From: Kordiimonadaceae bacterium
GTDB lineage: Bacteria > Pseudomonadota > Alphaproteobacteria > Sphingomonadales > Kordiimonadaceae
DNA: 64,000 bases
Assembly (NCBI GenBank): GCA_017640725.1
Contig: JAEPQB010000001.1
Coordinates: forward strand, 248,001-312,000
Reading direction: 5' to 3'
Shown here: positions 1,524 to 47,398 of the stretch, piece after piece
Position numbering within the stretch: position 1 is the first letter of the stretch
How the letters are laid out: each line of letters begins with the position of its first letter
The notes under the pieces: model-generated
What the model saw: the letters and a program-made list of their open reading frames with translations, nothing else
What the model was told of the DNA's origin: nothing
The model's database searches: none
Program-made: the position numbers and the translations under genes

Positions 1524-1541
1524 GGATATATTGATATATCA
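1524..1541. promoter_or_regulatory. Shared dyad operator, copy 1 (GGATATA-TTGA-TATATCA)
   Basis: This 18-bp inverted repeat has two 7-bp arms around 4 bases and contains the perfect core GATATA...TATATC. Equivalent sites lie at 12351-12368, 20379-20396 and 47381-47398, always in promoter regions. The position between the GntR gene and its divergent neighbour operon suggests autoregulation plus control of the operon. Confidence 0.65.
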
Positions 1542-1630
1542 TTTCGGGGGTAGTGGCAAATGGCTTTGCCCAATCACTGGCACCCCGGTTTTTTAGACCG
1601 CCAAATGGCGGCTAATCAGGAGTGGCACAC

Positions 1631-1927
1631 ATGGCAGCCTATATGGTGATATTGGCAGAAATTCAGGATATGCAAAGCTTTAGGGCTTACGGCGAGCGCG
1701 CGGCTGAACTCGTGGCACAATTTGGGGGCGAGTATGTTTCCCGTGGTGCCAAGCGTAGCGAATGCTTGGAGGGTGACTGGCCCGAAGAAACCAAAGTTGT
1801 TATATCCAAATGGCCCTCTTTCGAGGCAGCCAAAGCCTTTTGGGACTCTCCCGAATATGCCGAAGCGAAGAAGCTGCGGGAGGGCAATTCAACGGTGCGC
1901 GTGCGCCTGGTTGAAACCCTGGACTGA
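1631..1927 (+). CDS. DUF1330 family protein
   Basis: A 98-aa single-domain protein with the DUF1330 pattern: MAAYMVILAEIQD at the start, AELVAQFGGEYVSRGA in the middle and WPSFEAAKAFWDSPEYAEAKKLRE near the end. The family has a ferredoxin-like alpha/beta barrel fold and its biochemical role is not established; members often sit in catabolic operons. ATG 1631 is preferred over GTG 1622 because AGGAG (1618-1622) is 8 nt upstream. It is the first gene of an operon and the aldehyde dehydrogenase follows 21 bp later. The operator dyad lies about 90 bp upstream. Confidence 0.9.
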   Translation: MAAYMVILAEIQDMQSFRAYGERAAELVAQFGGEYVSRGAKRSECLEGDWPEETKVVISKWPSFEAAKAFWDSPEYAEAKKLREGNSTVRVRLVETLD

Positions 1928-1948
1928 TTACTTTTGCGGAGCGTGACT

Positions 1949-3373
1949 ATGAGTCTTGATGTTCGAAACCCCCACTCTGGCGAAGTCGATTATCGAATTG
2001 ACCCTGTCGCACCAGACGAGGTGGCGGCCGCGTGCAAAAGCCTTCGACAAGCGCAACCGGCATGGGAAGCACTGGGATATGACGGACGCACAAAAGTGCT
2101 TCGCGCATTCGCTGCAGGGCTCATGAAAAAGAAGGCAGAGATTCACCACGCCTTAACAGCGGACACGGGCCGCTCATACATTTCCGCGATGGAAATTGAC
2201 GGCATCCCGGGAGCAGTGGAGCGCTGGGTGAAAGCAGCTGAGGAGCTCGCAGAAGACACTGGCCGTGCGGGGGCCATGCCGTTTATCGAATATTCGGTAG
2301 GCTATCGCCCTTATCAGCTTGTTGGCGTCATTAGCCCTTGGAACTTTCCGCTCACCCTTTCCTTCATCGACGCCCTGCCGGCCCTGATGGCAGGCTCAGC
2401 CGTAATTATCAAACCGAGTGAGGTAACACCTCGGTTTGCAAAGCCGGTCAGAGAAGTCATTGAACAAATTGCGGAGTTAGAAGGTGTGCTCACAATTGTA
2501 GACGGCGCAGGCGACACGGGTGCCGCGCTTGTCGATAATGTGGACATGGTGTGTTTTACCGGCAGTGTCGCCACTGGCCGCAAGGTCGGCGAGCAAGCTG
2601 CTCGTAACTTCATTCCGTCTTGCCTGGAGCTCGGCGGCAAAGACCCAGCGATTGTACTTGAAAGTGCCGACATTGAACGCGCCAGCACGTCGCTTTTGCG
2701 CTCTTCTGTTCTCAATACCGGTCAAGCGTGTCAGTCCATTGAGCGCATTTACGTTGCTGAGCCGATTTTTGACGAGTTTCTCGCCAAACTGGTGGAGAAA
2801 GCTAAAGCCGTTACAATCAACACTCCCGATATCAACTCCGGTCAGATCGGCCCAATCATTTTTGAAAAGCAAGCCACCATCATTGCCGACCAGATTGCCG
2901 ACGCGCGCGACAAAGGTGCAACTATCCACAGCGGCGGCGAAGTGGAAAAGCACGGTGGCAACTGGTGTCGCCCAACGGTGATCACTAATTTGACGCCGGA
3001 TATGAAAATTATGCGTGAAGAAACATTTGGTCCCCTATTGCCGGTCATACCCTTTGACACCGTTGAAGAAGCAGTCGCCATGGCAAATGATAGTGAGTAT
3101 GGCCTGAGCGGCGCCGTGTTCGCCGCCTCAGCCGAAGAGGCCATCACGGTTGGCCGCCAAATCGATGCGGGTGGCATTAGCATTAACGACGGCTCGCTTA
3201 CCGGCATGATGCATGAAGCAGAAAAGAACTCTTTCAAGCTGTCTGGCATGGGGCCTTCTCGCATGGGGCGCTCTGGTTTTCTGCGCTTCTTCCGCCGCCA
3301 GTCAATGATGGTGAATACCGCAGATGTTGCACCGCTTGCCATGTTCGACGAAGCGAATGCAAACGCGTCGTAG
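1949..3373 (+). CDS. NAD(P)-dependent aldehyde dehydrogenase family protein
   Basis: The 474-aa product has the length of the aldehyde dehydrogenase superfamily, which oxidises aldehydes to acids with NAD(P)+ in the cytoplasm. Visible hallmarks are PWNFP (catalytic Asn about residue 132), the cofactor turn FTGS (203-206), general-base Glu227 in LELGG, and nucleophile Cys261 in [11 protein letters not shown] 1949 was chosen over a TTG at 1934 because GGAG lies 7 nt upstream. The gene is co-transcribed with DUF1330. The substrate is not evident; with the CoA-transferase further down the operon it may generate an acid that is then CoA-activated (inference). Confidence 0.93.
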
Positions 3374-3397
3374 GAAACTTAAAAAGCCGCAAATCCG

Positions 3398-3411
3398 TTG
3401 ACAAATGTCAT
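3398..3411. promoter_or_regulatory. Possible FnrL-type box TTGAC-AAAT-GTCAT
   Basis: It is one mismatch from the TTGAC-N4-GTCAA form seen in alphaproteobacterial FnrL targets. It lies in the 143-bp gap between the aldehyde dehydrogenase and the His-rich permease gene and could drive an internal promoter. The match could be chance. Confidence 0.35.
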
Positions 3412-3487
3412 GGTCGCCTCGCGCCGCCGCTCGTTAGGCTTCAAAAGCTCGGGATGAGTTTTGAGGAAAGCGTTAACCCCGGGCAAA

Positions 3488-3503
3488 GCCTCTGAACAGA
3501 GGC
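3488..3503 (+). other. Small hairpin beside the permease ribosome site
   Basis: GCCTCTG-AA-CAGAGGC lies 13 bp before the start codon of the His-rich permease gene, next to its AGGGGAAG site. It could influence translation initiation; no ligand-binding structure is recognised. Confidence 0.35.
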
Positions 3504-3516
3504 GCAGGGGAAGCAA

Positions 3517-4263
3517 ATGTCCGGCGAATTGTGGCTAATTGTCACCACAGCTGCGTCCATTGCATTTTTGCACACACTGATTGGACCGGATCACTATATG
3601 CCCTTTGTTGCGCTTGGAAAGGCGCGCAAATGGACAACCAAAAAAATGGCGCTGGTTACCGTGGGTTGTGGGCTCGGCCACTCACTCGGCTCCATCGTTC
3701 TGGGCCTGGTTGCTATTTCACTTTCTGTCACCCTTGGTGAAACAACAACCGCCCAAAATCAGATGGCCTCTATTGAGGGTATTCGAGGGGACCTGGCCGC
3801 GTGGGCCCTCATGAGCTTTGGCGTGCTTTACATGGTTTGGGGTGTCCGCCGTGCCCACCGGGCTAAAAAACACACCCATTTTCACGTGCATGCCGATGGT
3901 ACAGCGCATACCCATGAACATGATCATGCTGGCAATCACATGCACGTGCACGATGCTCCCGGGGGTGCCCAAAGCAAACTGGCTTTGGCGCCCTGGTCGA
4001 TATTCATCATTTTTGTCCTGGGCCCCTGTGAACCGCTGATCCCGTTGATGCTGTATCCAGCAGCGACCGCCTCGGCGTTGGGCGTCACTCTTGTTGTTGG
4101 AACATTCGTTTTGGTCACCGTTGCCACGATGACGGCTATCGCCCTTGCTGTGTTCAAGGGCCTGACATTCGTACCCACCAACATCTTTGAACGATACACC
4201 CATGCAGTTGCAGGAGGCACCATTGCCACGTGCGGCTTCGCGATTGTCGGACTCGGTTTATAG
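3517..4263 (+). CDS. His-rich polytopic membrane protein, UreH/NicO-like metal permease
   Basis: This 248-aa protein has about six hydrophobic helices. Helix I carries HTLIGPDHY (residues 19-27), resembling the H-x4-DH signature of nickel/cobalt permeases and UreH-like proteins. GLGHSLGSIVLG follows in helix II. The cytoplasmic or periplasmic loop at 113-146 is packed with about 13 histidines in HxH patterns, as in RcnA-type proteins. I infer transport of a divalent metal such as Ni, Co or Zn; direction is unclear, and a TauE/SafE-like anion exporter is a weaker alternative. AGGGGAAG precedes ATG 3517. The amidohydrolase starts 10 bp after its stop, so the two are co-transcribed. Confidence 0.75.
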   Translation: MSGELWLIVTTAASIAFLHTLIGPDHYMPFVALGKARKWTTKKMALVTVGCGLGHSLGSIVLGLVAISLSVTLGETTTAQNQMASIEGIRGDLAAWALMSFGVLYMVWGVRRAHRAKKHTHFHVHADGTAHTHEHDHAGNHMHVHDAPGGAQSKLALAPWSIFIIFVLGPCEPLIPLMLYPAATASALGVTLVVGTFVLVTVATMTAIALAVFKGLTFVPTNIFERYTHAVAGGTIATCGFAIVGLGL

Positions 4264-4273
4264 GGAAAAACGT

Positions 4274-5170
4274 ATGAGCGATTTTGACTACAAAGCCATC
4301 GATACTGTCGTCAACATCTGGACGCCCGAGGCACTGTCGCATAGGCCGGGTTGGACGGACGAATTTTTTATCGGCAAGATGAAAGGTGAGCATGACGAAG
4401 TCGGCATCAGCTTAGAGACCATGCTTGAGGACATGGACGCCGCCGGCATTGAATATGGCTTTCTGATCGCCACCAAGGCAGGGCGGACAGGCCTACCCGG
4501 CTGTTACCATATGCCACCAGAAGTGGTTGCCGAGGCTGTTAAAAAATACCCCAGCCGCTTTTTCGGCCTTCTTGGCATCGACCCCTTCCAGGGTATGGAT
4601 GGGGTACGGGCGCTTGAGTATGCCGTCAAGGAACTCGGTTTCATTGGCGCTCACCTATACCCGCATTGGTATAATCTTGAACCCAATGCAGCGCAGTATT
4701 ACCCATTTTATGCCAAATGCATCGAGCTTGGTATTCCGATCCAGATGCAGGTTGGCCAGTCGCTTATCTATTCAAAAGAACACCGTTGTCGTTCTGTAGG
4801 CAGGCCTATTTACCTCGATGATATTGCCTGCGACCTGCCAGAACTGAAACTGATTGGCAGCCATGTGGGTATCCCTTGGCATGATGAGATGATCGCCATG
4901 GCCTGGAAGCATGAGAATGTTTTCATCGCGACCGACGCACACAGTCCTAAATACTGGCCCGAAAGTGTGTGGCGCTACATCAACAGTTACGGCCAGAACA
5001 AAGTGATTTTTGGTTCTGATTTCCCTGTGCTGCGATTTGGGCGCACGGTTCAGGAAATTGATGACTATGGCCTTAAGCCGCAAGTGCGCAGAAAATTCAT
5101 GCGCAACAACGCCGTTAAGCTGTACGGCCTTGAACGCTTTGGCGTTGAACCAGCACCGGAGGGCGACTGA
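4274..5170 (+). CDS. Amidohydrolase family 2 protein lacking the N-terminal HxH motif
   Basis: The 298-aa product has the PF04909-type barrel features: the region ELKLIGSHVG with His197, and near the end VIFGSDFP with Asp249, positions that hold metal and catalytic residues in this family of decarboxylases and hydrolases. The expected N-terminal IDxHxH reads IDTVVNIW (residues 9-16), so both strand-1 metal histidines are missing. It may use a single metal or none. ATG 4274 follows AGGGAAA; a longer frame from 4187 overlaps the permease and is rejected. Its stop overlaps the start of the CoA-transferase (TGATG), implying translational coupling and a shared pathway. Confidence 0.85.
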   Translation: MSDFDYKAIDTVVNIWTPEALSHRPGWTDEFFIGKMKGEHDEVGISLETMLEDMDAAGIEYGFLIATKAGRTGLPGCYHMPPEVVAEAVKKYPSRFFGLLGIDPFQGMDGVRALEYAVKELGFIGAHLYPHWYNLEPNAAQYYPFYAKCIELGIPIQMQVGQSLIYSKEHRCRSVGRPIYLDDIACDLPELKLIGSHVGIPWHDEMIAMAWKHENVFIATDAHSPKYWPESVWRYINSYGQNKVIFGSDFPVLRFGRTVQEIDDYGLKPQVRRKFMRNNAVKLYGLERFGVEPAPEGD

Positions 5171-6381
5171 TGCCGGGCCCGCTCGACGGCATAAAAGTTG
5201 TTGAGTTCACGAGCGTCGTGCTGGGCCCATGGGCCTGCCAAACTTTGGGGGATATGGGTGCAGATGTGATCAAAGTGGAGCCGCCCGTCGGCGACACCAA
5301 CCGCAATCTGGGGCCCTACCGCGAAACCGGCAACATGTGCGCTCTTTATCTCAGTTGCAACCGCAACAAACGCTCCGTCGTTCTGGACCTGAAAAGCGAA
5401 AAGGGACGGGAAGCTGCATTTAGACTGGTCGCGGACGCGGACGTGATGGTCCACAATTTTCGGCCAACAGCCATGGAAAAGCTGGGTCTTGATTATGATG
5501 CGGTCTTAGCTGTGAACCCCAACATAATCTACTGCGCAACCTACGGCTTTAGCCGCAAGGGCCGCTACGGCAACCGCGGCGCGCTGGATGATGGCATACA
5601 AGCTGCGTCAGGCCTCTCAGCCCTTATGGCCCGCAGCCTCGGCGACGACAAACCCAGATACCTGCCCACCGTGATAGCGGACAAAACCACCGGGATGGCC
5701 GTTGTGAATGCGGTTTGCGCTGCCCTCTTTTCCCGCGAGCGCAACGGAAAAGGCCAAGCCATCGAAGTGCCAATGTTTGAGCAAACCGTGTCGTTCTTGA
5801 TGGCCGAACACCAATGGGGGCAAACCTTCGAACCCGCCATCGGCACCGCCGGGTATGCGCGCCTGCTCGCAGACAACCGCGCCCCCTACCCCACCAAAGA
5901 CGGTCACATTTCCATGCTGCCCTATTGGGACAATCACTGGAAAACATTCTGCGAGATCATCGAGCGCCCGGACATGATCACCGACCCCCGGTTTGACCGT
6001 ATGAAAAACCGGCTCGTCAACATCAACGACATGCATGCGGAAATCAGTAAAGAGCTCGCGAAACGCACCACCCAGGAATGGCTACAGCTCCTCGCGCCAA
6101 CCAACGTACCGCACATGATTGTTAACTCTCTCGATGATCTGATTGATGATCCACATCTGGTCGAGAGCGGTTTTTGGCAGCTGCATGACCATCCGACCGA
6201 AGGCCAAATCCGAATGGCCTCATCGCCCTATAATTTTTCAGAAACACCTGCATCCATCCGGCGCTTGCCTCCACACCTTGGTGAGCACAGCAGAGAAATC
6301 TTATTGGGCGCCGGGTACAGCGACACTGAAATCGAAACCATGCTTGCGGACGGGGTGACCCAGTCCGCATCCACTGAATGA
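5170..6381 (+). CDS. CaiB/BaiF (class III) CoA-transferase
   Basis: The 403-aa product shows family III CoA-transferase hallmarks: LDGIKVVEFTSVVLGPWACQTLGDMGADVIKVEPP at the N-terminus, NRNKRSVVLDLK, and Asp171 in TVIADKTTG, corresponding to the Asp that forms the acyl anhydride intermediate in formyl-CoA transferase. These enzymes move CoA between carboxylic acids without ATP. It overlaps the amidohydrolase by one base and is followed 15 bp later by a small unknown gene. The likely role is activation of a carboxylated intermediate whose identity cannot be read from sequence. Confidence 0.95.
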   Translation: MPGPLDGIKVVEFTSVVLGPWACQTLGDMGADVIKVEPPVGDTNRNLGPYRETGNMCALYLSCNRNKRSVVLDLKSEKGREAAFRLVADADVMVHNFRPTAMEKLGLDYDAVLAVNPNIIYCATYGFSRKGRYGNRGALDDGIQAASGLSALMARSLGDDKPRYLPTVIADKTTGMAVVNAVCAALFSRERNGKGQAIEVPMFEQTVSFLMAEHQWGQTFEPAIGTAGYARLLADNRAPYPTKDGHISMLPYWDNHWKTFCEIIERPDMITDPRFDRMKNRLVNINDMHAEISKELAKRTTQEWLQLLAPTNVPHMIVNSLDDLIDDPHLVESGFWQLHDHPTEGQIRMASSPYNFSETPASIRRLPPHLGEHSREILLGAGYSDTEIETMLADGVTQSASTE

Positions 6382-6396
6382 CGCAAAGAGGAGGGA

Positions 6397-6672
6397 ATGT
6401 TGAGTAAATACGTGCAGGACGACAAACCACCCATGACGGCGGAAGCCAAAGCCTGGATGGAAAAAGAAACGGCAACTCAGGAAGATCGCTACAAAGCGAT
6501 TGTGGATGAGCAAGACGCCCTCATTCCTGAGCGTGAGCAGTGGTACGCCGATTTTTTGAATATCGTGCAAACAAAAGGCTTCAACTTCACAGGCGACCAA
6601 CGCCGTGTAATCCCAAAAGAAGAGATTGCTGAAAAACCGGATCGCCCCGATGCGATGCGGGTTGTTTGGTAA
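6397..6672 (+). CDS. Small protein of unknown function (91 aa)
   Basis: I do not recognise this protein. It is hydrophilic and charged, has no signal peptide or membrane helix, and contains a helical stretch rich in Glu, Lys and Trp (AEAKAWMEKETATQEDRYKAIVDEQ) and one WYADF patch. AGGAGGG abuts ATG 6397 at only 2 nt, so TTG 6400 (5-nt spacing) may be the real start. It is wedged between the CoA-transferase and the cupin with short gaps (15 and 21 bp), so it belongs to the operon and may be a subunit or accessory of one of them. Confidence 0.7.
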   Translation: MLSKYVQDDKPPMTAEAKAWMEKETATQEDRYKAIVDEQDALIPEREQWYADFLNIVQTKGFNFTGDQRRVIPKEEIAEKPDRPDAMRVVW

Positions 6673-6693
6673 GGCATAGGAAAGGAAAAGAGA

Positions 6694-7794
6694 ATGGCAC
6701 GTCCCCATATTGAACCCTATGTCGAGTTTAATGAAGACTATCGCGCTTTCGACTTCGCCGGATACGGCGGTGCGGAATACAAGGTTTTGTCCCTCGATGT
6801 GGACACAGGCGCGAGCTCATTGAAAGTCAAATTCAACGGCGGCTATACCCGCAAGCCGGGCCTTTGTTATTCAGACATGGAAGTCTTTGTTCTGAACGGT
6901 GAGATAAAAGTTGGCAGCGAAACCTGGGTTGAAGGTCACTACTCTTTCATTCCGGCTGGGGTGGCGCTGGGTGCAATGGAGGTCGCGCAAGGTGCCGAAG
7001 CCATTGTTTGGTATAATGATAGCGAACCGACGTTTGAAGAAACCGACAGGGACCACCCGCTGGCACTCAAGGAAGGCTTCATTTCGGTAAACAGCTATCT
7101 GGATTGCCCCTGGGCATCAGGGTCGATCGTTTCGCCCTCTACTGCAACCGGTTGCATGATCAAACTATTGCGGTTCGACCCGATTACCGAGGCTATGACT
7201 TTCCTATATTGCATGACACCAGAATTCATGCAGGACAACATCAGCTATCACGACTGCGCGGAGGAGAGTTACCACATCTGGGGCACCAGCTGGATGATGC
7301 AGTTTGGCGACCTTCCAACCGGCGGTTATTTCTGGCGACCACCTTACATCAATCATGGCTCATTCCGGTCCAAGCTCGGCTGTATTGCCATTGGTCGGAC
7401 AGACAGCAAGCTGCACAATTATTTTCATTTCAATCCATGGACTAACCCGGACGACAATCAGGCACGCGCGGCCTCATTTCTGTATCGCCAAAGACCGCAG
7501 CTTTTCCGCTGGGTTGGCGCGGGTGGCCACAACCATCCCCACGGGCCGCAAGGACAGCTGAAGTACCAAAACCCGCCCCATGATTTTGAGACGCCCGAAT
7601 ACGGTCACCGGCCTGACGTGAGCGCCCTGGCGAACCAAAATTATACTTTCCGGGAAATGGACCATCTGCATGCAGATGAGTATGTGCACAAGGTGCATCA
7701 TGCGCATAAAGTGGAGGATGATCATCACCATCATGATCATGACCATGACCATCCGCACCATCACGGTGACGGGGACCTGGATCACAAACACTAA
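6694..7794 (+). CDS. Double-cupin protein with His-rich C-terminal tail
   Basis: The 366-aa protein contains two cupin-like segments. The first is around residues 60-110, with MEVFVLNGEIKVGSETWVEGHYSFIPAG, and the second around 185-250, with YHIWGTSWMMQFGDLPTGGYFWRPPYINHGSF. The last ~45 residues hold long runs of His and Asp (HHHHDHDHDHPHHHGDGD), a probable metal-buffering tail. Cupins of this type are metal-dependent dioxygenases, isomerases or sensors. It is most like the DUF4437/ChrR-related cupins, but I cannot assign a reaction. It ends the operon that begins at 1631, with a hairpin following. The His-rich permease in the same operon suggests metal supply. Confidence 0.8.
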   Translation: MARPHIEPYVEFNEDYRAFDFAGYGGAEYKVLSLDVDTGASSLKVKFNGGYTRKPGLCYSDMEVFVLNGEIKVGSETWVEGHYSFIPAGVALGAMEVAQGAEAIVWYNDSEPTFEETDRDHPLALKEGFISVNSYLDCPWASGSIVSPSTATGCMIKLLRFDPITEAMTFLYCMTPEFMQDNISYHDCAEESYHIWGTSWMMQFGDLPTGGYFWRPPYINHGSFRSKLGCIAIGRTDSKLHNYFHFNPWTNPDDNQARAASFLYRQRPQLFRWVGAGGHNHPHGPQGQLKYQNPPHDFETPEYGHRPDVSALANQNYTFREMDHLHADEYVHKVHHAHKVEDDHHHHDHDHDHPHHHGDGDLDHKH

Positions 7795-7906: not shown

Positions 7907-8629
7907 ATGCGCCCCATCTCGAATTCTGGTGAAATTTTGTGTCACAGTTGCCCGGCTCGAAAAAGCCGGCTGTGTTCTGCTTTGGATGAAAAAGCAATTT
8001 ATGAGCTGGATGCCATCGCAACCCGAATAGAGATCAAACCGCATGGCTACCTGTTCGAAGAAGAAGACCCCAGCGATTATGTCTATAATATCAGTACTGG
8101 GATCGGCCTGCTGGAGCGCTTATCGAGCGATGGCCGACGCCAGATTATGGCATTCCTATTCCCTGGTGATTTCGCGGGCCTCTTACCAGACGCAATTGCC
8201 AGTGTGAGCGCCAAAGCACTCAGCCGCCTGACGGCCTGCCGCTGGCACATCCGCGACTTGGATGCCCTGATGGAACGTCACCCAGAGCTTGAGCACCGCC
8301 TGCGCCGCATTGGCGGCCGTGTGCTGGCGACCACACTTGATCAGGTGTTTGTGCTGGGCTGCAAAAACGCGCGCGAAAAGCTCGCTTATTTTCTTCTGCA
8401 TATGGAACATCGCCAGAAGGCCGCTCTGGGCCCGCGGGAAACGCTGCATTTGCCGATGACCAGGGTCGACATTGCAGATTATCTGGGGATCACCGTCGAG
8501 ACAGTCAGCCGGGTATTTTCCAAAATCAAGCGTGAAGGCCTGATTGAACTGCCTGACCCCAACAATGTGGTCATCAAACAGCGCGAACACTTGCAGGACA
8601 TAGCGGAATACTATCCGGACGGCCACTAG
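7907..8629 (+). CDS. Crp/Fnr family regulator, FnrL-like, with probable Fe-S cluster
   Basis: The 240-aa protein has an N-terminal Cys cluster C12-x2-C15-x7-C23, spaced as in FnrL proteins, and a fourth cysteine at 111 that could complete a 4Fe-4S ligand set. A cNMP-fold domain follows (about 30-150). The C-terminal winged helix has the recognition helix ETVSRVFSKIKREG carrying the E-xx-SR signature that reads TTGA half-sites. GGAGGG is 7 nt before ATG 7907. The protein likely senses oxygen. FNR-type boxes in this window at 1491, 30658 and 56385 are plausible targets. Confidence 0.9.
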   Translation: MRPISNSGEILCHSCPARKSRLCSALDEKAIYELDAIATRIEIKPHGYLFEEEDPSDYVYNISTGIGLLERLSSDGRRQIMAFLFPGDFAGLLPDAIASVSAKALSRLTACRWHIRDLDALMERHPELEHRLRRIGGRVLATTLDQVFVLGCKNAREKLAYFLLHMEHRQKAALGPRETLHLPMTRVDIADYLGITVETVSRVFSKIKREGLIELPDPNNVVIKQREHLQDIAEYYPDGH

Positions 8630-11214: not shown

Positions 11215-12273
11215 TCAGATTGTGCCGTCATCACTCATTTTTTTGATGCTGGCCTGCTGGGCACCTATGAAATGTGCCCGATCTGGTGTTTTCACACTGC
11301 CATCATCTGCTAGCAAACTGTTCGCAGGCTGGGTGCCCAGTGTCGCATAGGTTTCAGCAAAAAGTTCCAGCCGCTGACGTGCCAACATATTGCTCATGCC
11401 CGGGCGGCGGCGATGCTTCCTGAGGGCATTCAGGTCAATGCAGGCATGCGCTGTCATGGTTTGGCCCCATCCGCTTTCTGCGTGCACAAGGCCTTTGAAA
11501 TCGACGATGGATGAGCGCCCATCCGTGGCGGAAAACGGCAGTTCATGCCCTTGAATGCCGCCTGCATTTGCAGAGATCACATATGCCAGATTTTCCAGCG
11601 CGCGCGCCTTCCGGGCAATTGCTTTGGGCGTTTCAGACATGGAACCCATCTCCCCCGTCGCATGAAGAAACACCTCCGCACCGCGAAGCGCCAAAGCACG
11701 GGCGATTTCGGGATACAGAATTTCTTCTGACGCAATGGCTGCCAGGTTTCCGATCTCGGTTTTTGCCACTGGGAAAACGCCGTCCAGGCCATAGATATCC
11801 AGATACTTGTCCCACACATCGTGGGGCGTTGGCGCAAACATGGAATTCAGGCGGCGGTACCGCAAAATCACATCGCCGCTGGGCGCAATGACGAAACAGG
11901 CCTGAAAATAGAGGCCCGGGAAGTTGGGGTCCCGCTCATAAGCGTTGCCCATCAGATATATATCGTTGTCTTGTGCGATTTTGCCGAGTGCTTCGTACTC
12001 TGCGCCGTCCATGTCGATGGCGGCTTTTTCTGCCCAACCGGGCACTGTGTCCCCGAGCGGATACGCAGTCAGCACATATTCGGGCATCACAATCAGTTTT
12101 GTATCGGGGCCAATGAAACGCTTGGTGGCTTGTAATTCACCCGCGAGCCGGTCAATGGTGCGCATCATGGATGCGCGCGCTTCTTCCTTACTCGGTAAGC
12201 CGTTTACGGCGTCACATGTGGTTTGCAGCGCGGCAGCATAATAACTTGGGCCCAAGAGTGTCTGATCGCTCAT
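11215..12273 (-). CDS. Nitrilase-superfamily (carbon-nitrogen hydrolase) protein with altered catalytic triad
   Basis: The 352-aa protein keeps the nitrilase fold landmarks: Glu65 in LIVMPEYVLTAYP, the YRRLN segment after strand VILRY, and LYPEIARALALRGAEVFL. The family uses Glu-Lys-Cys. Here the lysine position reads Arg141 (YRR instead of YRK). The nucleophile segment reads IASEEILYPE, placing Ser182 where IC(Y/W)D would have Cys. The substitutions are clear in the nucleotide sequence, so this is not a frameshift. It may be inactive, a binding protein or a changed enzyme. It is divergent from the MDR reductase, with the shared dyad between them. Confidence 0.85.
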   Translation of the reverse strand: MSDQTLLGPSYYAAALQTTCDAVNGLPSKEEARASMMRTIDRLAGELQATKRFIGPDTKLIVMPEYVLTAYPLGDTVPGWAEKAAIDMDGAEYEALGKIAQDNDIYLMGNAYERDPNFPGLYFQACFVIAPSGDVILRYRRLNSMFAPTPHDVWDKYLDIYGLDGVFPVAKTEIGNLAAIASEEILYPEIARALALRGAEVFLHATGEMGSMSETPKAIARKARALENLAYVISANAGGIQGHELPFSATDGRSSIVDFKGLVHAESGWGQTMTAHACIDLNALRKHRRRPGMSNMLARQRLELFAETYATLGTQPANSLLADDGSVKTPDRAHFIGAQQASIKKMSDDGTI

Positions 12274-12350: not shown

Positions 12351-12368
12351 TGATATATCGATATAGCA
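12351..12368. promoter_or_regulatory. Shared dyad operator, copy 2 (TGATATA-TCGA-TATAGCA)
   Basis: Near-perfect 18-bp palindrome (one position breaks symmetry), 20 bp before the MDR reductase start and 78 bp before the nitrilase-like gene. It has the same arm and spacer layout as the sites at 1524, 20379 and 47381. Confidence 0.65.
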
Positions 12369-12387: not shown

Positions 12388-13410
12388 ATGGCACAAGAGA
12401 TGAACCGCCAAGTCCTATTGGCATCAACACCTGATGGCATGCCTGCAGAAGGGCATTTCACTGTCGCTGAGTCAGCGATAGCGCCCCCCAAAGACGGTGA
12501 AATCCTGTGTCGAAATCTGTTTCTCTCACTTGATCCTTATATGCGCAGTCAAATCGCCGGCAGGCATATGTCTGGCAGCACTGCACCGGGTGATGTTCTA
12601 AAGGGCGAAACCATCGCAGAGATTGTTGAAAGCAAACACCCAGATTTCAAAACGGGCGATAAGGTGATCGTGCCAGGTGGATGGCAAACCCACACCACAC
12701 TTGTGCCCCAACCCGATGCGCCGCCACCGATGGCGACACGCAGGCTTAACCCAGCAGTTTACCCAATGTCGCTCGCGTTGGGGGCGCTTGGCATGCCTGG
12801 CCTTACGGCTTACGCCGGGCTAAAGCATCTTGGCCAACCGAAAGCAGGGGATGTGGTTGTTGTGTCAGCAGCATCAGGCGCCGTCGGCTCCATGGTGGGG
12901 CAGTTTGCCAAGTCGCTGGGGTGCAAGGTCATTGGCATTGCCGGCAGCCCAGATAAATGCAAATGGCTGACAGACACCGCCGGATTCGACGGCTGCATCA
13001 ATTACAAGGATGAAGCGGTTGCTGACGGCCTCGACCGCTTGTGCCCGAAGGGTGTTGATATTTACTTCGATAATGTCGGGGGTGAAATATTGGATGCTGT
13101 CAGTTGGCGGCTTGCCATTGGCGCGCGGGTTATCCTGTGTGGACTCATTTCAAAAGTGAATTCAAGCGAACCGGTAGTTGGACCAAGCCCCGGCGCCTTC
13201 ATCAAAGCACGCGCCACTGTGCGCGGCCTCGTGGTTTATGACTTTTGGGACCAGATGGACGAAATGGCTGAAACATTTATGAAGCTGATCGAAGCTGGCA
13301 AGATGCACTTTCTGGAAGATGTCAGTGATGGCATTGAGGAAGCACCGGCAGCGTTTGTTCGGCTGATGAACGGGCAAAACCACGGTAAAACCATTATAAA
13401 GCTGCTGTAG
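12388..13410 (+). CDS. Zinc-independent MDR oxidoreductase (PTGR/curcumin-reductase type)
   Basis: The 340-aa product has the N-terminal GroES-like part with FLSLDPYMRSQIAGRHM. Its Rossmann part contains LGALGMPGLTAYAGL, VVVSAASGAVGSMVGQFAKSLGCKVIGIAGSPDKC (NADPH-binding AASGAVG) and YFDNVGGEILD. Members reduce alpha,beta-unsaturated ketones or aldehydes with NADPH and need no zinc. GGAG precedes ATG 12388. A shared operator dyad sits just upstream, placing it in the proposed regulon. Confidence 0.94.
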   Translation: MAQEMNRQVLLASTPDGMPAEGHFTVAESAIAPPKDGEILCRNLFLSLDPYMRSQIAGRHMSGSTAPGDVLKGETIAEIVESKHPDFKTGDKVIVPGGWQTHTTLVPQPDAPPPMATRRLNPAVYPMSLALGALGMPGLTAYAGLKHLGQPKAGDVVVVSAASGAVGSMVGQFAKSLGCKVIGIAGSPDKCKWLTDTAGFDGCINYKDEAVADGLDRLCPKGVDIYFDNVGGEILDAVSWRLAIGARVILCGLISKVNSSEPVVGPSPGAFIKARATVRGLVVYDFWDQMDEMAETFMKLIEAGKMHFLEDVSDGIEEAPAAFVRLMNGQNHGKTIIKLL

Positions 13411-13992: not shown

Positions 13993-15564
13993 CTAGATAA
14001 GACCCAGTGCGCCAGGATTGATTTGGCCTGTGGGGTCGAGCTCTTTTTTCAGTGTTTCCACCAGTGCATAGCTCGCGGGCTCAAGACCTTCGCGGTACTT
14101 GTAGGCCTTTCCAATTTGCAGATGAACGGCACCCTCTTTTTTGAATAGCTCAACCAGAGCCGTTCGCACTTTCATCACCGCAGCAAATCCATCGGGGCGC
14201 GAACCATAGTCCTGAAAATTCTTTTTGGCGCTGGCCTCGACAATCTCTTCCTGAATTTCCATGCGCTCATCCGGCCAGAAAAATACAGGCTCCAGCACGC
14301 ATGTGCTGGCACCCACGGTTGCGAGCAAATAACCCGTGTGAATGTCATGGGTTGCCATTTCCTCGCTGTGGTCAGCAAAAATCTTTTCGATCTTGTCCAT
14401 CATATCAACGGCGCGCGAGTGCGGCACAAGGCCGTGTACGGGCAGCCAACGTTCCCCTTCCGGACCAACAGCGTTGTTAAGCGGTGTGAAGGGGTTTGCA
14501 CTGATAATTTTGGGGATCGAATTTTCAATCTGCTTACCGCCTGCTTCTTTGCACACAGCCTCAATTTCCGCCAGCGCAGCGTCAGCACCAACGCTTGAAT
14601 GCGCTTCTGTGATAAAATGATAGCTATATTGAACATCATCCATAAAGCCGCGCCCCGCGAGAGCAACTTTCGCCCCTTCTTTTAGGGCCTTGAAGGCACC
14701 ACCCGACGACTTCATGACATTGGTGAGCGACTTCACATCACTCGCCAGACTCTGGCGCTTCATGCGCTGACTTTGCAGGTAAGGGTCAAAACCGAAGCTT
14801 TCGCTCGCGATGCCCCGGCGTGCGACTTCACTGGCTGCGGCAAACATGCTGGCGTAATCCGGAAAATCAAACGAGGCGAACCGTTTGTGTTCTGGTTCGC
14901 GCACGAGGCGCATGGTGATGGTGGCCTTGACCCCAAGCGCCCCTGCGTCAGACGTAAAAATTCCGGTAAGGTCTGGTCCGAAATGTCGCTGGAACGGGGT
15001 GGCATTCACCTGAGCTCCGGCCCCCGTTTTTAGAATGCTGCCGTCAGCCAAAACAATCTCAAAACCTGTCACACTGTCGGCGGCGGTACCATGTTGGCCA
15101 GAGCCAAAAAAGATGCTGTTCTGGCTCATACCGCCGCCAACGGTTGCGCGAATGCCCGACAGTGTGCCCCAAAACGGCGTGCGGACACCGGTCCCTTTAA
15201 GCGCCTCATGTAAATCCACCCAACGGCAACCGGCCTCCACCGTGACATACATGTCCGTGGTGTTGACCTCCAAAACGCGGTCCATGCGGGCTGTGTCGAT
15301 GGTTATGGCTTTGTTGTTGGTAGGCAGGTAGCCACTGGTGTAGCTCATGCCACCGCCGCGCGGAAACAAGCTGTAACCAGCTTCAACGGACGCTTTAACG
15401 GCCGCCGCAAGCTCTTCTTTGTCACCGGGTCGTATCACTGCCTGCGTCACAAAATCCGCGCGTTTACTGACATCCTGCGAATAAAAGGCAAGGTCGGCTT
15501 CGTCCAAAAGCAGGTTGTCGGCACCCAGTATCTGGGTCAAACGGTCTTTAATCGAAGCGTCCAT
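13993..15564 (-). CDS. FAD-linked oxidase of the VAO/GlcD family
   Basis: The 523-aa product has a PCMH-type FAD-binding domain (VIRPGDKEELAAAVKASVEAGYSLFPRGGGMSYTSG, then TVGGGMSQNSIFFGSGQHGTAADSVTGFEIVLADGSI). The C-terminal FAD-oxidase domain ends in the family signature LDPTGQINPGALGLI. Relatives include vanillyl-alcohol oxidase, 4-cresol dehydrogenase and glycolate/lactate dehydrogenases, so it should oxidise an alcohol, phenol or hydroxy acid. No signal peptide is seen. It is the last gene of the TRAP operon, 13 bp after DctM, so its substrate may be what the transporter imports (inference). Confidence 0.92.
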   Translation of the reverse strand: MDASIKDRLTQILGADNLLLDEADLAFYSQDVSKRADFVTQAVIRPGDKEELAAAVKASVEAGYSLFPRGGGMSYTSGYLPTNNKAITIDTARMDRVLEVNTTDMYVTVEAGCRWVDLHEALKGTGVRTPFWGTLSGIRATVGGGMSQNSIFFGSGQHGTAADSVTGFEIVLADGSILKTGAGAQVNATPFQRHFGPDLTGIFTSDAGALGVKATITMRLVREPEHKRFASFDFPDYASMFAAASEVARRGIASESFGFDPYLQSQRMKRQSLASDVKSLTNVMKSSGGAFKALKEGAKVALAGRGFMDDVQYSYHFITEAHSSVGADAALAEIEAVCKEAGGKQIENSIPKIISANPFTPLNNAVGPEGERWLPVHGLVPHSRAVDMMDKIEKIFADHSEEMATHDIHTGYLLATVGASTCVLEPVFFWPDERMEIQEEIVEASAKKNFQDYGSRPDGFAAVMKVRTALVELFKKEGAVHLQIGKAYKYREGLEPASYALVETLKKELDPTGQINPGALGLI

Positions 15565-15577
15565 GATTTAGTCCTGA

Positions 15578-16837
15578 CTATTTTACAAGAAACAGAGATA
15601 GGGAGGGCGTAAAGGTGACAATCAACAGGCCGATGATCATCAACACGAGGAATGGCAAAACAGATTTTGCGATCAGCCAGAAGTCCTCTTTGAAGGCTGT
15701 CATCGCAACAATGAGGTTGAGCCCCAGGGGCGGCGTCAAGTAACCAATCTCCAGGTTGGTGATCATGATCACACCAAAATGCACGGGGTCCACCCCTTGT
15801 GAAAGGGCAAGCGGCATCAAAAGAGGCGAGATGATCAGAATGGCTGAGCCGATATCCATGAAGCAGCCAACCGCCAGCAACAGCACCATGGTTATCAGCA
15901 GGAAAGATACCGGGTCGCTGACAAGTTCCGTCATCCAGCCCACGAGGGCCGCTGGAATTTGCTCATAGGCCATAAAGGTGTTGATGGATAACGCCATCAT
16001 GAGGAGCGGAAACAGGCTGCCCATCATGGTTGCCGTTTCAAGCGATGTGTCCTTGAGTTCAGCCAGTGTCATGTCACGGTGCACAAGGAGCTCCACAAGC
16101 ACTGCATAGAACACTGCAACTGCTGCAGACTCTGTCGCAGTAAACCAACCGGCGTATATACCGCCCAGAATAACAACTGGCATAAACAGTGCAAAAATGC
16201 CGTTCTTGAGGGCGTCAATGAGGGCGGAGAAATTGAACGGCGCCCGCTCTTTGCTCCAATTCACCGCCATCGAATAGATGACAAACAGACTGGTCAGCAA
16301 GATGGCCGGGCCGATACCGGCCTTGAACAAGTCCGCAATCGACGTTTCCGTCATTACTCCATACAAGATGAGCGGGATTGATGGCGGTACAATGATGCCA
16401 AGCGTGCCGGCCGCACACAGTGCGCCGAGCGCAAACTTCTTGCTATATCCCGCATCAATGAGTGCCGGATACATCACTGAGCCAACGGCAATCAGTGTCA
16501 CGGTGCTGGAACCGGAAATCGCGGCAAAAAACGCACACGACAGTACGGTCGCAATGGCAAGACCGCCCGGGATCGGGTTCATGGCCTCGCGCATGATCGC
16601 GATTAACCTGCGTGCAATCGAACCACGCGACATGATGTTGCCTGCAAGTATGAAGAGCGGGATCGACAGCAATACTTCCTGGTCAGCTGCGGCCCATGTG
16701 TCGAGAACCACATAGCCAAGCTTGCCGTCACCCCACACCAAATAGCTGAAACCGGCAGCCAGCATCAGCATGATGACGATGCGTTGCCGCAGCAACAGCA
16801 TGAGCACAAGTGAGGAAGAAAGAACTAGAGCACTCAT
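15578..16837 (-). CDS. dctM: TRAP transporter large permease, DctM subunit
   Basis: The 419-aa polytopic protein has the DctM signature: AGNIMSRGSIARRLI, GGLAIATVLSCAFFAAISGSSTVTLIAVGSVMYPALIDAGYSKKFA, IIVPPSIPLILYGVMT, and near the end VDPVHFGVIMITNLEIGYLTPPLGLNL. It forms the sodium-driven channel subunit of a tripartite ATP-independent periplasmic transporter. It overlaps dctQ by 4 bp (ATGA), indicating coupled translation. Confidence 0.96.
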   Translation of the reverse strand: MSALVLSSSLVLMLLLRQRIVIMLMLAAGFSYLVWGDGKLGYVVLDTWAAADQEVLLSIPLFILAGNIMSRGSIARRLIAIMREAMNPIPGGLAIATVLSCAFFAAISGSSTVTLIAVGSVMYPALIDAGYSKKFALGALCAAGTLGIIVPPSIPLILYGVMTETSIADLFKAGIGPAILLTSLFVIYSMAVNWSKERAPFNFSALIDALKNGIFALFMPVVILGGIYAGWFTATESAAVAVFYAVLVELLVHRDMTLAELKDTSLETATMMGSLFPLLMMALSINTFMAYEQIPAALVGWMTELVSDPVSFLLITMVLLLAVGCFMDIGSAILIISPLLMPLALSQGVDPVHFGVIMITNLEIGYLTPPLGLNLIVAMTAFKEDFWLIAKSVLPFLVLMIIGLLIVTFTPSLSLFLVK

Positions 16838-17385
16838 GCTTTTTCTCCCTCTGTGTCTTCTGACGCGCCAGACGGAATGGCGTCCAGACCTTCTGCATCT
16901 TCAAGGACTGGCCTAAGCTCCGGGATCAGGCCAAAAATACTGTGACGGATAGCAGCGACAAAGAACACCAGCGGGATGATTGCCTGCATCGGCCATACGG
17001 GGATGCGAAGCATGCGCGTAGCCTCACCGAGCTCATAGGTTTCCCGCACAACCCCCACCGCAACGATGGCAAACACCAGACAAAAGGCAGCTGTTAGCAA
17101 TTCCTGAATGCGCGTGATGGCTCCATCCCAATGCTCAGGAAACCAAGTGTCTGCAAACTTGGGCCGCAGATGTCGGCGGGCATCAGACGCCAGGCCAAAA
17201 CTGACAAACGCCGTGGCGATCATGGCAAACACGCCGATGCGCGGTGCACCCGCAATACCAACACCGGTGAGCTTGCGACTAAACACATCCGCGATAATGA
17301 CAAGCGTCATGACAGCAAAAGCTAGCAAAGTAATAGTTCGTTCCGCTTTCGAAACGATCTTCAAAAAGGTGCGCGCGAATTCCAT
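16834..17385 (-). CDS. dctQ: TRAP transporter small permease, DctQ subunit
   Basis: The 183-aa protein has four predicted membrane helices (for example ERTITLLAFAVMTLVIIADVFSRK and a final VWPMQAIIPLVFFVAAIRHSIFGLI), as in DctQ subunits. The acidic C-terminal tail is ordinary. It overlaps DctP by one base and DctM by four, giving a standard P-Q-M order. Confidence 0.93.
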   Translation of the reverse strand: MEFARTFLKIVSKAERTITLLAFAVMTLVIIADVFSRKLTGVGIAGAPRIGVFAMIATAFVSFGLASDARRHLRPKFADTWFPEHWDGAITRIQELLTAAFCLVFAIVAVGVVRETYELGEATRMLRIPVWPMQAIIPLVFFVAAIRHSIFGLIPELRPVLEDAEGLDAIPSGASEDTEGEKA

Positions 17386-18452: not shown

Positions 18453-18485
18453 CCAACACTCCTTCAATTCCCGTCTCGTACCAGC

Positions 18486-19373: not shown

Positions 19374-19380
19374 TGTGCGC

Positions 19381-20378: not shown

Positions 20379-20396
20379 TGTTATAGTAGTATATCA
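20379..20396. promoter_or_regulatory. Shared dyad operator, copy 3 (TGTTATA-GTAG-TATATCA)
   Basis: The 18-bp imperfect palindrome lies between the divergent VOC-TRAP operon (start 20292) and the amine oxidase gene (start 20439), with the arms and 4-bp spacer seen in the other three copies. Confidence 0.65.
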
Positions 20397-20438
20397 TTTA
20401 TTAGTTGGATGTCTGTTGCCATGTTTGGGGGAGAACAC

Positions 20439-40366: not shown

Positions 40367-40400
40367 GCGCGTCAGCGCGGTTGCCACTGGGGAGAGATCA

Positions 40401-41918: not shown

Positions 41919-41920
41919 CC

Positions 41921-45665: not shown

Positions 45666-46129
45666 TATGCTGCTCCTCTTTCACTGATGACCTTTTTGAT
45701 CGCCTTCTTGATGCGCGGATAACTGCCGCACCGGCACACATTGCTGATGGCATCGTTGATATCTTCGTCAGTTGGAGCCGGGTTTTCGTCCAACAGCGCG
45801 CTAACCGCCATCACCATGCCGGACTGGCAGTAACCGCACTGCGGCACCTGCTCGTCGATCCAGGCTTGTTGCACATCGGTGAACATGCCCTCATCCGACA
45901 GCCCTTCGATGGTGGTGATCTCAATATCTTCCGCGGCCTCAACCGGATAAACGCACGTGCGCGTCGCCGCGCCGTCCATGTGGACCGTGCAAGCACCGCA
46001 AGCAGCCACGCCGCAACCGAACTTAACGCCCTTAAAGCCCAGCTCGTCACGTAGCACCCACAAAAGAGGTGTGTCGGGCTCGACATCGACAGTGCGTGTC
46101 TCCCCATTAACTTTCAGTGTATATGGCAT
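45665..46129 (-). CDS. 2Fe-2S subunit of the molybdenum hydroxylase (IorA type)
   Basis: The 154-aa protein has both iron-sulfur sites: the plant-ferredoxin-type [16 protein letters not shown]...C (residues ~38-58) and the C-terminal [11 protein letters not shown]...CRCGSYPRI (residues ~97-137). It passes electrons from the molybdenum subunit to the acceptor. It has no signal peptide of its own and would be co-exported with the Tat-bearing large subunit. It is divergent from the pirin gene. Confidence 0.95.
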
Positions 46130-46171
46130 GCCCTTACTCTCCCGATTGGCCCGTCCGAAGAATCAAACAAT

Positions 46172-46188
46172 ACGACAAATGATGTCGT
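46172..46188. promoter_or_regulatory. Inverted repeat ACGACA-AATGA-TGTCGT
   Basis: A perfect 6-bp dyad with 5-bp spacer in the divergent region between the molybdenum hydroxylase operon and the pirin gene. It is a plausible operator for a TetR- or LysR-size regulator, but no such gene is adjacent. Confidence 0.45.
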
Positions 46189-46292
46189 TTTGTCCATAGC
46201 GAGATTCTGATCGGTTGCCCTTCGTGTAATCGGTCATCATACTGTGATCGAAACATGCTCTTGTGGCGCCCATACCAGCAAGGAGAAAGCAG

Positions 46293-47207
46293 ATGAGCTA
46301 CCATGATTCCACTTCCGCAGACTGTGAGAACAAAAGCTGTTCGGGCATCAAGACAGTTATTCGCCCCAAAGCAAAAGACATTGGTGGCTTCGAAGTGCGT
46401 CGGGCGCTGCCGTCCATCGAAGCGCGCACGGTTGGCCCCTTCATATTCTTTGACCAGATGGGGCCCGCCACCTTCGCCCCGGGCACTGGCGTTGATGTGC
46501 GCCCACACCCCCACATCGGCCTGTCAACGCTCACGTGGCTTGTTGAAGGTGAAATCATGCACCGCGATAGTCTTGGCTATGCGCAGCCCATTCGCCCAGG
46601 CGAAGTGAATTGGATGACGGCAGGCACCGGCATCGTGCACTCTGAGCGCACGCCTGACGATGTGCGCGCGGCTGGCCACAACCTGCTCGGCCTTCAGGTC
46701 TGGATGGCCTTACCTTCCGACAAACAAGAGGTGGACCCTTCGTTCCAACATTATGAAGCTGCCGACATTCCTGTTGTGAAACTCGATGGCGCAACAGTGA
46801 CCATCGTCGCGGGCGACGCCTGGGGCGCCACCTCCCCCGTATCGGTTTATAGTCGCACACTGTACGCCGATGTCCGTATCAATGCAGGCGCAGCCCTCGA
46901 CATCCCGGCATCTCATGAAGAGCGCGCAATTTATGTGGTTTCCGGTTCAGTAAAATTGGGCGAAGAAGAATTTGGCGAAGCAACCATGGTTGTCCTTCGC
47001 GAGGATGAAGTCGTTCCTGTGAACACGATAGAAGGTGCCCATCTGGCTCTTATTGGCGGCGACAAACTCAAGCAACCTCGTCGTTTGTGGTGGAACTTCG
47101 CCCACACCGACAGCGCGATGTTAGAAGACGCAAAAAATCGCTGGAAGAACGGTGAGTTTGCCATGGTTGCTGGCGACGATGAGTTTATTCCTCTACCTGA
47201 CCGCTAA
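46293..47207 (+). CDS. Pirin family protein
   Basis: The 304-aa bicupin has classic pirin motifs: GPFIFFDQMGPATFAPGTGVDVRPHPHIGLSTLTWLVEGEIMHRDSLG (metal ligands HPHIG) and NWMTAGTGIVHSERTP. Bacterial pirins bind Fe or another metal and some act as quercetinases; others are redox-linked regulators. ATG 46293 follows AAGGAGA; the longer frame to 46263 is rejected. It is divergent from the molybdenum hydroxylase operon. Confidence 0.95.
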   Translation: MSYHDSTSADCENKSCSGIKTVIRPKAKDIGGFEVRRALPSIEARTVGPFIFFDQMGPATFAPGTGVDVRPHPHIGLSTLTWLVEGEIMHRDSLGYAQPIRPGEVNWMTAGTGIVHSERTPDDVRAAGHNLLGLQVWMALPSDKQEVDPSFQHYEAADIPVVKLDGATVTIVAGDAWGATSPVSVYSRTLYADVRINAGAALDIPASHEERAIYVVSGSVKLGEEEFGEATMVVLREDEVVPVNTIEGAHLALIGGDKLKQPRRLWWNFAHTDSAMLEDAKNRWKNGEFAMVAGDDEFIPLPDR

Positions 47208-47249
47208 ACGAATTCGTATTCTTACCGAGTCGCAATAATTTGGAAACTC

Positions 47250-47283
47250 ATGTCGCGCTACGGCGAATAGGGCGACATTTTTG
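47250..47283 (+). terminator. Probable terminator after pirin
   Basis: ATGTCGC pairs with GCGACAT across a 15-nt loop, followed by a run of Ts (47278-47282). The long loop makes it moderate in strength. Confidence 0.6.
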
Positions 47284-47380
47284 CCACACATATCATCAAA
47301 ACTGATCTGTCCATAGTGTCATGAATTTGCTGAAATTCTTGTATTTCAGCAACTTATGTAGTTTCGACATTTTTGTTAGT

Positions 47381-47398
47381 TGTCATATTGATATATCA
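47381..47398. promoter_or_regulatory. Shared dyad operator, copy 4 (TGTCATA-TTGA-TATATCA)
   Basis: Same arm and spacer design as the sites at 1524, 12351 and 20379; its right arm and spacer (TTGA-TATATCA) are identical to copy 1. It is located 139 bp before the TonB receptor start and links this gene to the first region of the window. Confidence 0.6.

Follow-up and report, generated by a model that had tools for sequence, protein, structure and literature searches.

Transcriptional regulators that combine a GntR winged helix with a UTRA effector domain, such as HutC, YvoA/NagR, DasR, and PhnF, are the closest described counterparts of the system analysed here: a GntR/UTRA regulator and an 18-bp inverted repeat (dyad) that recurs in a 64,000-nucleotide stretch (the window) of the genome of a marine Kordiimonadaceae bacterium (assembly GCA_017640725.1). 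To judge from named neighbours and from kinship, the genus is probably Kordiimonas. The likeness lies in the location in a catabolic cluster and in a site in the regulator's own promoter, and YvoA and DasR are relatives of the cluster GntR in the Protein Data Bank (PDB). The operator appears to differ: the dyad, TGWTATA-N4-TATAWCA, is unlike NGTMTAKACN, the consensus of the HutC subfamily, which the ten sites described below do not show on inspection. We think it probable that the dyad is the operator of the GntR/UTRA regulator in one local regulon, which, judged from sequence comparisons, would be a new GntR/UTRA catabolic regulon.

Four dyads within a ten-promoter cluster

An earlier note on this DNA had described four intergenic dyads, three of them in divergent promoters and two with an identical right half, and in these respects it was accurate. 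All four are found at its window coordinates (Table 1), no copy lies inside an accepted gene, copies 1, 2, and 3 separate divergent genes, and the last 14 bases of copies 1 and 4 are the same. Copy 4 stands between tandem pirin and TonB receptor genes and is overlapped by a 213-aa minus-strand open reading frame (ORF; 47383-48024), which overlies the TonB gene and is taken as spurious. Copy 1 departs from the pattern TGNYATAN4TATRNCA by a single mismatch, at its first base. Allowing at most one mismatch, this pattern occurs four times in the window versus 0.25 expected, and none of 100 shuffles contained at least four matches. The consensus is about WWWTGWTATA-N4-TATAWCAWWW. Several sites overlap by 8 bp. 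Among 59 sites with a position weight matrix (PWM) score of at least 16.5, 39 have both the outer TG and CA. Of the 20 sites that miss one outer end, 14 have an inner TG or CA, compared with 10 of the 39 others. An alternative basic form, in which 10-bp palindromes are arrayed on an 8-bp lattice, was considered; we retain the 18-bp dyad as the principal form and regard the lattice as a variant of it.

In the whole genome (G000; 4,040,051 bases in 14 contigs, with the window at C6:248001-312000) there are five exact matches to the pattern, against none in a reversed control. All five sites lie within 53 kb (C6:242498-295398), and two of these precede the window on its upstream side. At one mismatch or fewer there are 27 sites versus 21 in the control, so the relaxed pattern alone is not specific genome-wide; what is specific is the clustering, with 10 of the 27 sites in C6:231982-295398 (those added at one mismatch are at C6 231982, 234414, 235343, 239771, and 249524, the last being window position 1524). 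Ten site-bearing promoters are found in 63 kb of C6, six of which lie upstream of the window. The idea of a regulon in the earlier note is supported; its scope of four promoters proved too small.

The same cluster emerges from a profile built without Kordiimonas sequences. Profile R1 (24 bases) was trained on 21 sites with PWM scores of at least 17, all from other genera (G019, which is Eilatimonas, G036, and loci L052, L053, L055, L056, and L076). In G000 it gave 17 strand-matches at E<=10, corresponding to nine distinct sites, every one inside C6:231980-295399 (probability about 3e-14 under uniform placement). Scoring covered 150 of the 230 first-look candidates, and within that set R1 gave no site outside the cluster; cluster site 239771 is not recovered by R1.

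In ortholog alignments, the 18 site columns are more invariant than 100 flanking columns at all ten promoters, which bears out the conservation expected of an operator. Invariant columns number 13/18 versus 8/100 at the GntR/DUF1330 promoter (copy 1), 14/18 versus 6/100 at the TonB promoter, and 12/18 versus 7/100 at the HMG-CoA-lyase-like (HMGL)/CoA-transferase promoter (seven genomes each); 13/18 versus 17/100 at the DUF1838 promoter, 11/18 versus 26/100 at the MFS promoter, and 9/18 versus 19/100 at the VOC/VOC promoter (six genomes each); 17/18 versus 24/100 at the methyltransferase promoter, 13/18 versus 35/100 at the VOC/amine oxidase promoter (copy 3), and, weakly, 14/18 versus 62/100 at the nitrilase/MDR promoter (copy 2; four genomes each); and 16/18 versus 45/100 at the TonB-2 promoter (copy 4; two genomes). 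The sites are present despite shuffled gene order in Eilatimonas, G036, and G041.

A GntR/UTRA protein as the candidate binder

The proposed binder has an N-terminal GntR winged helix (PF00392, E 2.1e-18) and a C-terminal UTRA domain (PF07702, E 2e-33), and it stays below the cut-off of the HutC equivalog (TIGR02018; 112.8 versus 220 bits). Its longest ORF starts at 1491; the ATG at 1443 is preceded by GGGGGA. Orthologs are 59-94% identical. We scanned 59 genomes with R1 under stricter filters: ten have a GntR ortholog (at 60-94% in nine; in G035 it is known only from 37 residues, 57% identical, where a contig ends), G041 carries a homologue of 36% identity, and the remaining 48 have weaker or differently built paralogues, the best of which (39%, G026) has a different helix and is accompanied by 0 R1 matches. 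At least eight R1 strand-matches occur in nine of the ten ortholog genomes and in G041, versus 1/48 without an ortholog; when the four training genomes are left out, the proportions are 6/6 and 1/48. A site lies upstream of gntR at 12 of 13 ortholog loci (ten by the fixed pattern, L053 and L054 at PWM 15.4) and was not found at the thirteenth, L017.

The recognition helix links the protein to the motif. Across 11 orthologs there is no variation in residues V76-S77-R78-I79-T80 and K82-R83-A84-L85-D86-E87-L88-A89. The helix of the distant G041 homologue, SRITAKRAMDEL, has one residue changed, and all 13 other compared paralogues differ. G041 lies outside the training set, yet 18 of its 23 strand-matches fall in 81 kb ending at its gntR (C1:819357-899855), with two site positions upstream of that gene and 5/23 elsewhere. 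This association of helix and motif is the best indirect pointer to GntR as the binder.

Several observations weigh against this assignment. The co-occurrence counts are not independent, because the GntR-bearing genomes are related. G037 has a 63% GntR and two strand-matches, one of them a training site and none in the gntR promoter, and G051 has nine scattered matches without a GntR ortholog. The fixed-pattern cut is lax and admits further matches in the window and in L013, L014, L016, and L056. A few R1 training sites may be chance matches, because reversed controls also match in AT-rich G036 and in L053 (at PWM>=15, 7 versus 3 and 2 versus 1, compared with 10 versus 0 in G019), and two of these control matches reach or exceed the training cut of 17. 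The footprint excess at the nitrilase/MDR promoter is small. On a rival view, the dyads would be no operator but promoter elements rich in A and T, namely overlapping -10 boxes, that recur by composition: the motif is TATA-rich, its one-mismatch matches hardly outnumber those of the control, and G036 yields control matches. The exact sites are absent from the control, however, and confined to 53 kb; 9/9 profile sites fall in the cluster, the sites form conserved blocks within otherwise diverged promoters, and matches occur without control matches in three regions of 62-64% GC. A composition artefact was rejected by the whole-genome, control, and footprint tests and, already largely refuted, strikes us as extremely improbable.

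It is also conceivable that GntR is a bystander and that the dyads are bound by the FNR/CRP-type protein, by the cluster LysR or a small helix-turn-helix (HTH) protein, or by a regulator encoded elsewhere. The gene for the FNR-type protein occurs in nearly the same genomes as gntR, and in G041 its product keeps 72% identity, compared with 36% for GntR; it is set aside for the sole reason that it has a canonical box of its own, a candidate for which stands by the operator at four promoters and goes with its FNR-like helix, ETVSR. These boxes are found at 4/10 promoters, and background alone commonly supplies boxes of score 8 (0.75 per kb), two facts that count against our explanation. At E<=1e-10, the stretches of seven relatives gave no match to the 134-aa HTH protein, and the LysR gene at C6:224083 was not found in the stretches of G019, G036, and G037, which, like that of G013, may not reach the LysR locus. 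The 10-mer TGATATATCA also occurs in a promoter/operator fragment of TroR, a DtxR-family regulator of Treponema denticola (PMC2628430); the 10-base core alone is therefore no guide to the family of the regulator. None of the scanned proteins was recognised as DtxR-type, and the site in the gntR promoter is the most widely kept. We consider a different binder unlikely.

Proposed regulation and a second input

With GntR as the binder, we infer that the regulator is autoregulated and controls the ten promoters. It would most likely be a repressor that covers the -10 region of its target promoters, whose -10 element can be one of the operator's own TATA half-sites, and it would release the DNA when a pathway intermediate binds the UTRA domain.

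The FNR-type protein encoded in the cluster has Cys12, Cys15, Cys23, and Cys111 and a TETVSRV helix, the pattern expected of an oxygen-sensing FNR, namely three N-terminal cysteines plus one internal cysteine and an E-SR helix. The ETVSR helix presumably pairs with the FNR box. Boxes resembling TTGAT-N4-ATCAA are centred 29-35 bp from the operator centre at the MFS, GntR/DUF1330, nitrilase/MDR, and VOC/amine oxidase promoters, each on the upstream side of one transcribed gene; the VOC/amine oxidase box is the weakest (score 8 of 10, reached in 2/4 genomes). The FNR-type regulator probably acts at these four promoters, upstream of the operator. In class II geometry FNR sits near -41.5, and the operator would therefore cover the -10 region and the start site.

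Gene content of the cluster

Uptake genes in and around the ten promoters encode two TonB receptors, an MFS transporter, and a TRAP transporter, so the regulon would provide outer- and inner-membrane uptake together with a pathway. The enzymes include VOC proteins, alpha/beta hydrolases, DUF1838, LeuC- and LeuD-like hydratase subunits, an HMG-CoA-lyase-like protein, class III CoA-transferases, methyltransferases, two MDR reductases, DUF1330, aldehyde dehydrogenase (ALDH), amidohydrolase_2, DUF4437, nitrilase-like protein, FAD-linked oxidase, and flavin amine oxidase. Not every cluster gene carries a site of its own. With a mean predicted local distance difference test score (pLDDT) of 59.3 (three sequences) and no structural match at E<=0.001, the predicted fold of DUF1838 was uninformative.

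Table 1. Operators, candidate FNR boxes, and genes in the window (window positions; a full stop marks features without strand)
Feature	Position	Strand	Context and basis
GntR/UTRA regulator, proposed binder	631..1443	-	Pfam GntR and UTRA
FNR box TTGATATTGATCAA	1491..1504	.	centre 35 bp from operator centre
Operator copy 1, GGATATATTGATATATCA	1524..1541	.	between gntR (-) and DUF1330-ALDH operon (+); sequence and profile match
DUF1330 protein and aldehyde dehydrogenase	1622..3373	+	Pfam; orthologs in Kordiimonas genomes, Eilatimonas, G036, G041
Amidohydrolase_2, CoA-transferase III, 91-aa protein (without Pfam match), DUF4437 cupin	4187..7794	+	Pfam
FNR/CRP-type regulator	7907..8629	+	Pfam, translation
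Nitrilase-superfamily C-N hydrolase	11215..12273	-	Pfam
FNR-like box TTGTTTTACATCAA	12324..12337	.	centre 29 bp from operator centre
Operator copy 2, TGATATATCGATATAGCA	12351..12368	.	between nitrilase-like (-) and MDR reductase (+); sequence and profile match
MDR (ADH_N_2) reductase	12388..13410	+	Pfam
Operon of FAD-linked oxidase, TRAP DctM-DctQ-DctP, LCM-type methyltransferase, VOC	13993..20292	-	Pfam; 183-aa DctQ by position
Weaker FNR-like box ATGACGTATATCAA	20351..20364	.	centre 30 bp from operator centre; threshold reached in 2/4 genomes
Operator copy 3, TGTTATAGTAGTATATCA	20379..20396	.	between VOC-methyltransferase-TRAP-FAD oxidase operon (-) and amine oxidase (+); sequence and profile match
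Flavin amine oxidase	20409..21902	+	Pfam, PDB relatives; Tat signal by sequence
Operator copy 4, TGTCATATTGATATATCA	47381..47398	.	upstream of second TonB receptor; sequence and profile match
TonB-dependent receptor 2	47537..50068	+	Pfam

Some neighbouring genes deserve mention. A 248-aa ORF (3517-4263) without a Pfam match at 1e-5 has 48-76% matches in seven other regions, where it adjoins an amidohydrolase or ALDH gene. The methyltransferase ORF upstream of the window (C6:241358-242920) is over-long: operator 242498 falls within its N-terminal extension, and the true start is therefore probably downstream. Near pirin, window positions 43458-46129 encode a molybdenum hydroxylase large subunit that begins with a twin-arginine motif, together with its 2Fe-2S partner; the pair is kept with TonB-2 in G013, and its own promoter has no operator match. 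A large TonB-receptor-like protein followed by two paralogous flavoproteins (37404-43441) adjoins a LacI-type regulator; the flavoproteins presumably resemble tryptophan halogenases.

An inferred imide pathway core

An isochorismatase-fold amidase and two PuuE-like proteins are encoded just upstream of the ten-promoter cluster in G000, and a CoA-transferase/HMGL/HyuAB set lies further upstream. Much of the inferred core chemistry would be encoded upstream of the window. The PuuE-like proteins, here called imidases, also resemble allantoinases, and the amidase resembles N-carbamoylsarcosine amidases. The G041 imidase ortholog falls below the cut-off for PuuE allantoinase (TIGR03212; 127.2 versus 424.6 bits) and is related to PuuE without being PuuE. 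Orthologs of the imidase have an upstream site in G019, G035, G041, and G048. The cluster LeuC narrowly misses the TIGR00170 equivalog (552 versus 560 bits) and passes two broader LeuC models, and its orthologs in G005, G013, G018, and G036 just pass TIGR00170. Scores exceed the cut-offs for LeuD (TIGR00171; 191.5 versus 116 bits) and for an HMG-CoA lyase subfamily (NF004283; 278.5 and 311.1 versus 246 bits). The cluster copy is the lowest-scoring of three LeuC in G000 (the others reach 765 bits at C6:743135 and 645 at C6:1779932); leucine synthesis is therefore probably covered elsewhere, which fits a specialised role of the cluster copy and makes a function of LeuCD in leucine synthesis only less likely.

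Two TTGTATACAA palindromes stand in the CoA-transferase/HMGL-HyuAB divergent promoter of G000 (C6:218501-218655; L005 about 501-655). The same promoter has a TATA-type operator in G036, G041, and L053, and a change of regulator in Kordiimonas is possible.

An imidase match at E<=1e-60 is present in 39 of 385 genomes of the class, and we compared its context in 12 regions from 11 genomes other than G000, mostly best matches. In 7/12 regions the imidase/half-amidase genes have, at a distance of about 1 kb or less, a lyase of the phosphoenolpyruvate (PEP) mutase/isocitrate lyase (ICL) family that is kin to the methylisocitrate and 2,3-dimethylmalate lyases; LeuCD with CoA-transferase and HMGL accompanies the imidase in 1/12, and neither lyase set was found in the fetched stretch in 4/12. 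That one lyase type replaces the other beside the same hydrolases suggests a route from imide to half-amide, substituted maleate, substituted malate, and pyruvate plus an acyl unit. GntR homologues (45-53%) occur in four of these 12 regions (L115, L116, L121, and L127). Operator-like sites (PWM>=13) are present in 5 of 14 distant regions (L114, L116, L117, L121, and L127), with 0 in the reversed control of all 14; the site lies 43 bp before the half-amidase in L117, 45 bp before the gntR match in L121, and, for one site in L127, 25 bp before the half-amidase, and three site-bearing regions have 62-64% GC. Two results count against drawing these genes into the regulon: the imidase genes of G000 (C6:227138-229680) have no operator match, and no site was found in 9/14 distant regions.

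The earlier note had suggested an uptake-and-oxidation pathway for one compound. A single compound and an oxidative route are both conjectural; the conserved core looks hydrolytic and lyase-like. The PuuE-like imidase would open a cyclic imide, the isochorismatase-fold amidase would hydrolyse the half-amide, the LeuCD-like enzyme would hydrate the substituted maleate, and the CoA-transferase with the HMG-CoA-lyase-like enzyme would yield pyruvate and an acyl-CoA; a methylisocitrate/dimethylmalate-lyase-like enzyme may take the last step instead. We give this cyclic-imide core roughly an even chance.

The regulon may serve an N-heterocycle or aromatic compound other than a tetrapyrrole-derived imide, with the PuuE-like and isochorismatase-like enzymes acting on a ureide, a hydantoin, or a lactam. 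Ureide/lactam chemistry would fit the allantoinase-like and N-carbamoylsarcosine-amidase-like relatives and HyuA, whose best NCBIfam match, below the cut-off, is caprolactamase; on the same side, red chlorophyll catabolite (RCC) reductase occurs only in G041 among the 59 genomes, and no bilin reductase exceeds the cut-off in 11 genomes, two results that count against a tetrapyrrole substrate. Ureide degradation would need neither a malate-type lyase nor the LeuCD-CoA-transferase-HMGL set, however, and one or the other is near the imidase genes in 8/12 regions; moreover, in G041 the RCC-reductase homologues are part of the operator cluster. We put the chance of another such substrate a little short of even.

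A possible tetrapyrrole substrate

Two RCC-reductase homologues are encoded in the G041 operator cluster (L083:19-831 and L084:3415-4221). One matches plant RCC reductase structures at 3e-8, and one of the genes is divergent from a Rieske oxygenase gene, with an operator between them; maleate-isomerase-like and methylisocitrate/dimethylmalate-lyase-like genes belong to the same cluster. The PF06405 gathering score is reached only in G041 (two copies) and in G408: the family was detected in one of the 59 relatives and in 3 of 385 class genomes, one of them (G408) over the cut-off. In G408 a Rieske oxygenase adjoins the RCC reductase, and a PEP-mutase-type lyase, an HpcH-type lyase, MmgE/PrpD, a CoA-transferase, and hydantoinase B are encoded nearby; no imidase reaches E<=1e-60 in this genome, and its region gave no operator match. 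A link between RCC reductase and imidase across the class was not supported: the two are found in 3/385 and 39/385 genomes with an overlap of one (G349, a weak RCC match), and no association was apparent. The PF06405 search found no RCC reductase in G000, a further point against a tetrapyrrole substrate.

Oxidation of tetrapyrroles yields dialkylmaleimides, which would fit the proposed imide core, and tetrapyrrole-derived alkylmaleimides are our leading, still tentative, guess at the substrate. On the corresponding view, which we hold to be doubtful, the regulon would be a bacterial route for feeding on chlorophyll- or bilin-derived pigments. Their pyrrole rings would be released as alkylmaleimides such as hematinic acid and hydrolysed to dialkylmaleates, and hydration and cleavage would then give pyruvate and an acyl-CoA. 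A single GntR operator would be shared throughout Alphaproteobacteria, and some members would have added RCC-reductase and Rieske steps. RCC-reductase relatives in other bacteria are mentioned in PMC10151467. Among the titles listed by searches of open-licence literature there was no paper on a bacterial pathway for the breakdown of tetrapyrrole pyrroles, which is weak evidence of novelty. No paper on Kordiimonas with GntR was found, and beyond the papers cited none of the listed titles had a bearing on this regulon.

Four short repeats thus lead to a regulon that can be put to the test: its proposed regulator is named, its operator is precisely defined, and its extent is bounded. The operator recurs in other Alphaproteobacteria, in which it could help to locate the pathway. 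Were the tetrapyrrole proposal true, these would be genes for the bacterial breakdown of chlorophyll- or bilin-derived pyrroles.

Comparison with known systems

The promoter fragment that bears the TroR operator of Treponema denticola likewise has a dyad of 18 bp and includes TGATATATCA (PMC2628430); TroR is a DtxR-family metal regulator, and the flanks (TTTTGATATATCAAAA) lack the second TATA arm. Plant chlorophyll breakdown employs pheophorbide a oxygenase and RCC reductase, and G041 and G408 similarly pair a Rieske oxygenase with an RCC-reductase homologue; unlike the plant system, the Rieske proteins are VanA_C-type, and G000 has no RCC reductase.

Nicotinate catabolism provides the closest parallels to the proposed chemistry. 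In Aspergillus, the imidase HxnM, related to PuuE and HpPgdA, is followed by the amide hydrolase HxnN, according to PMC9304392. The same order of imidase and amidase is proposed here, with an amidase of the isochorismatase fold, whereas the next genes would encode a hydratase and a lyase for a substituted maleate. Anaerobic nicotinate fermentation uses dimethylmaleate hydratase and 2,3-dimethylmalate lyase. It shares with the present system the LeuCD-like hydratase and, in G041 and other genomes, the PEP-mutase/ICL-family lyase, which matches 2,3-dimethylmalate lyase (3fa3) at 9e-47 and methylisocitrate lyase at 9e-54; the Kordiimonas cluster differs in having a CoA-transferase and HMG-CoA-lyase-like pair.

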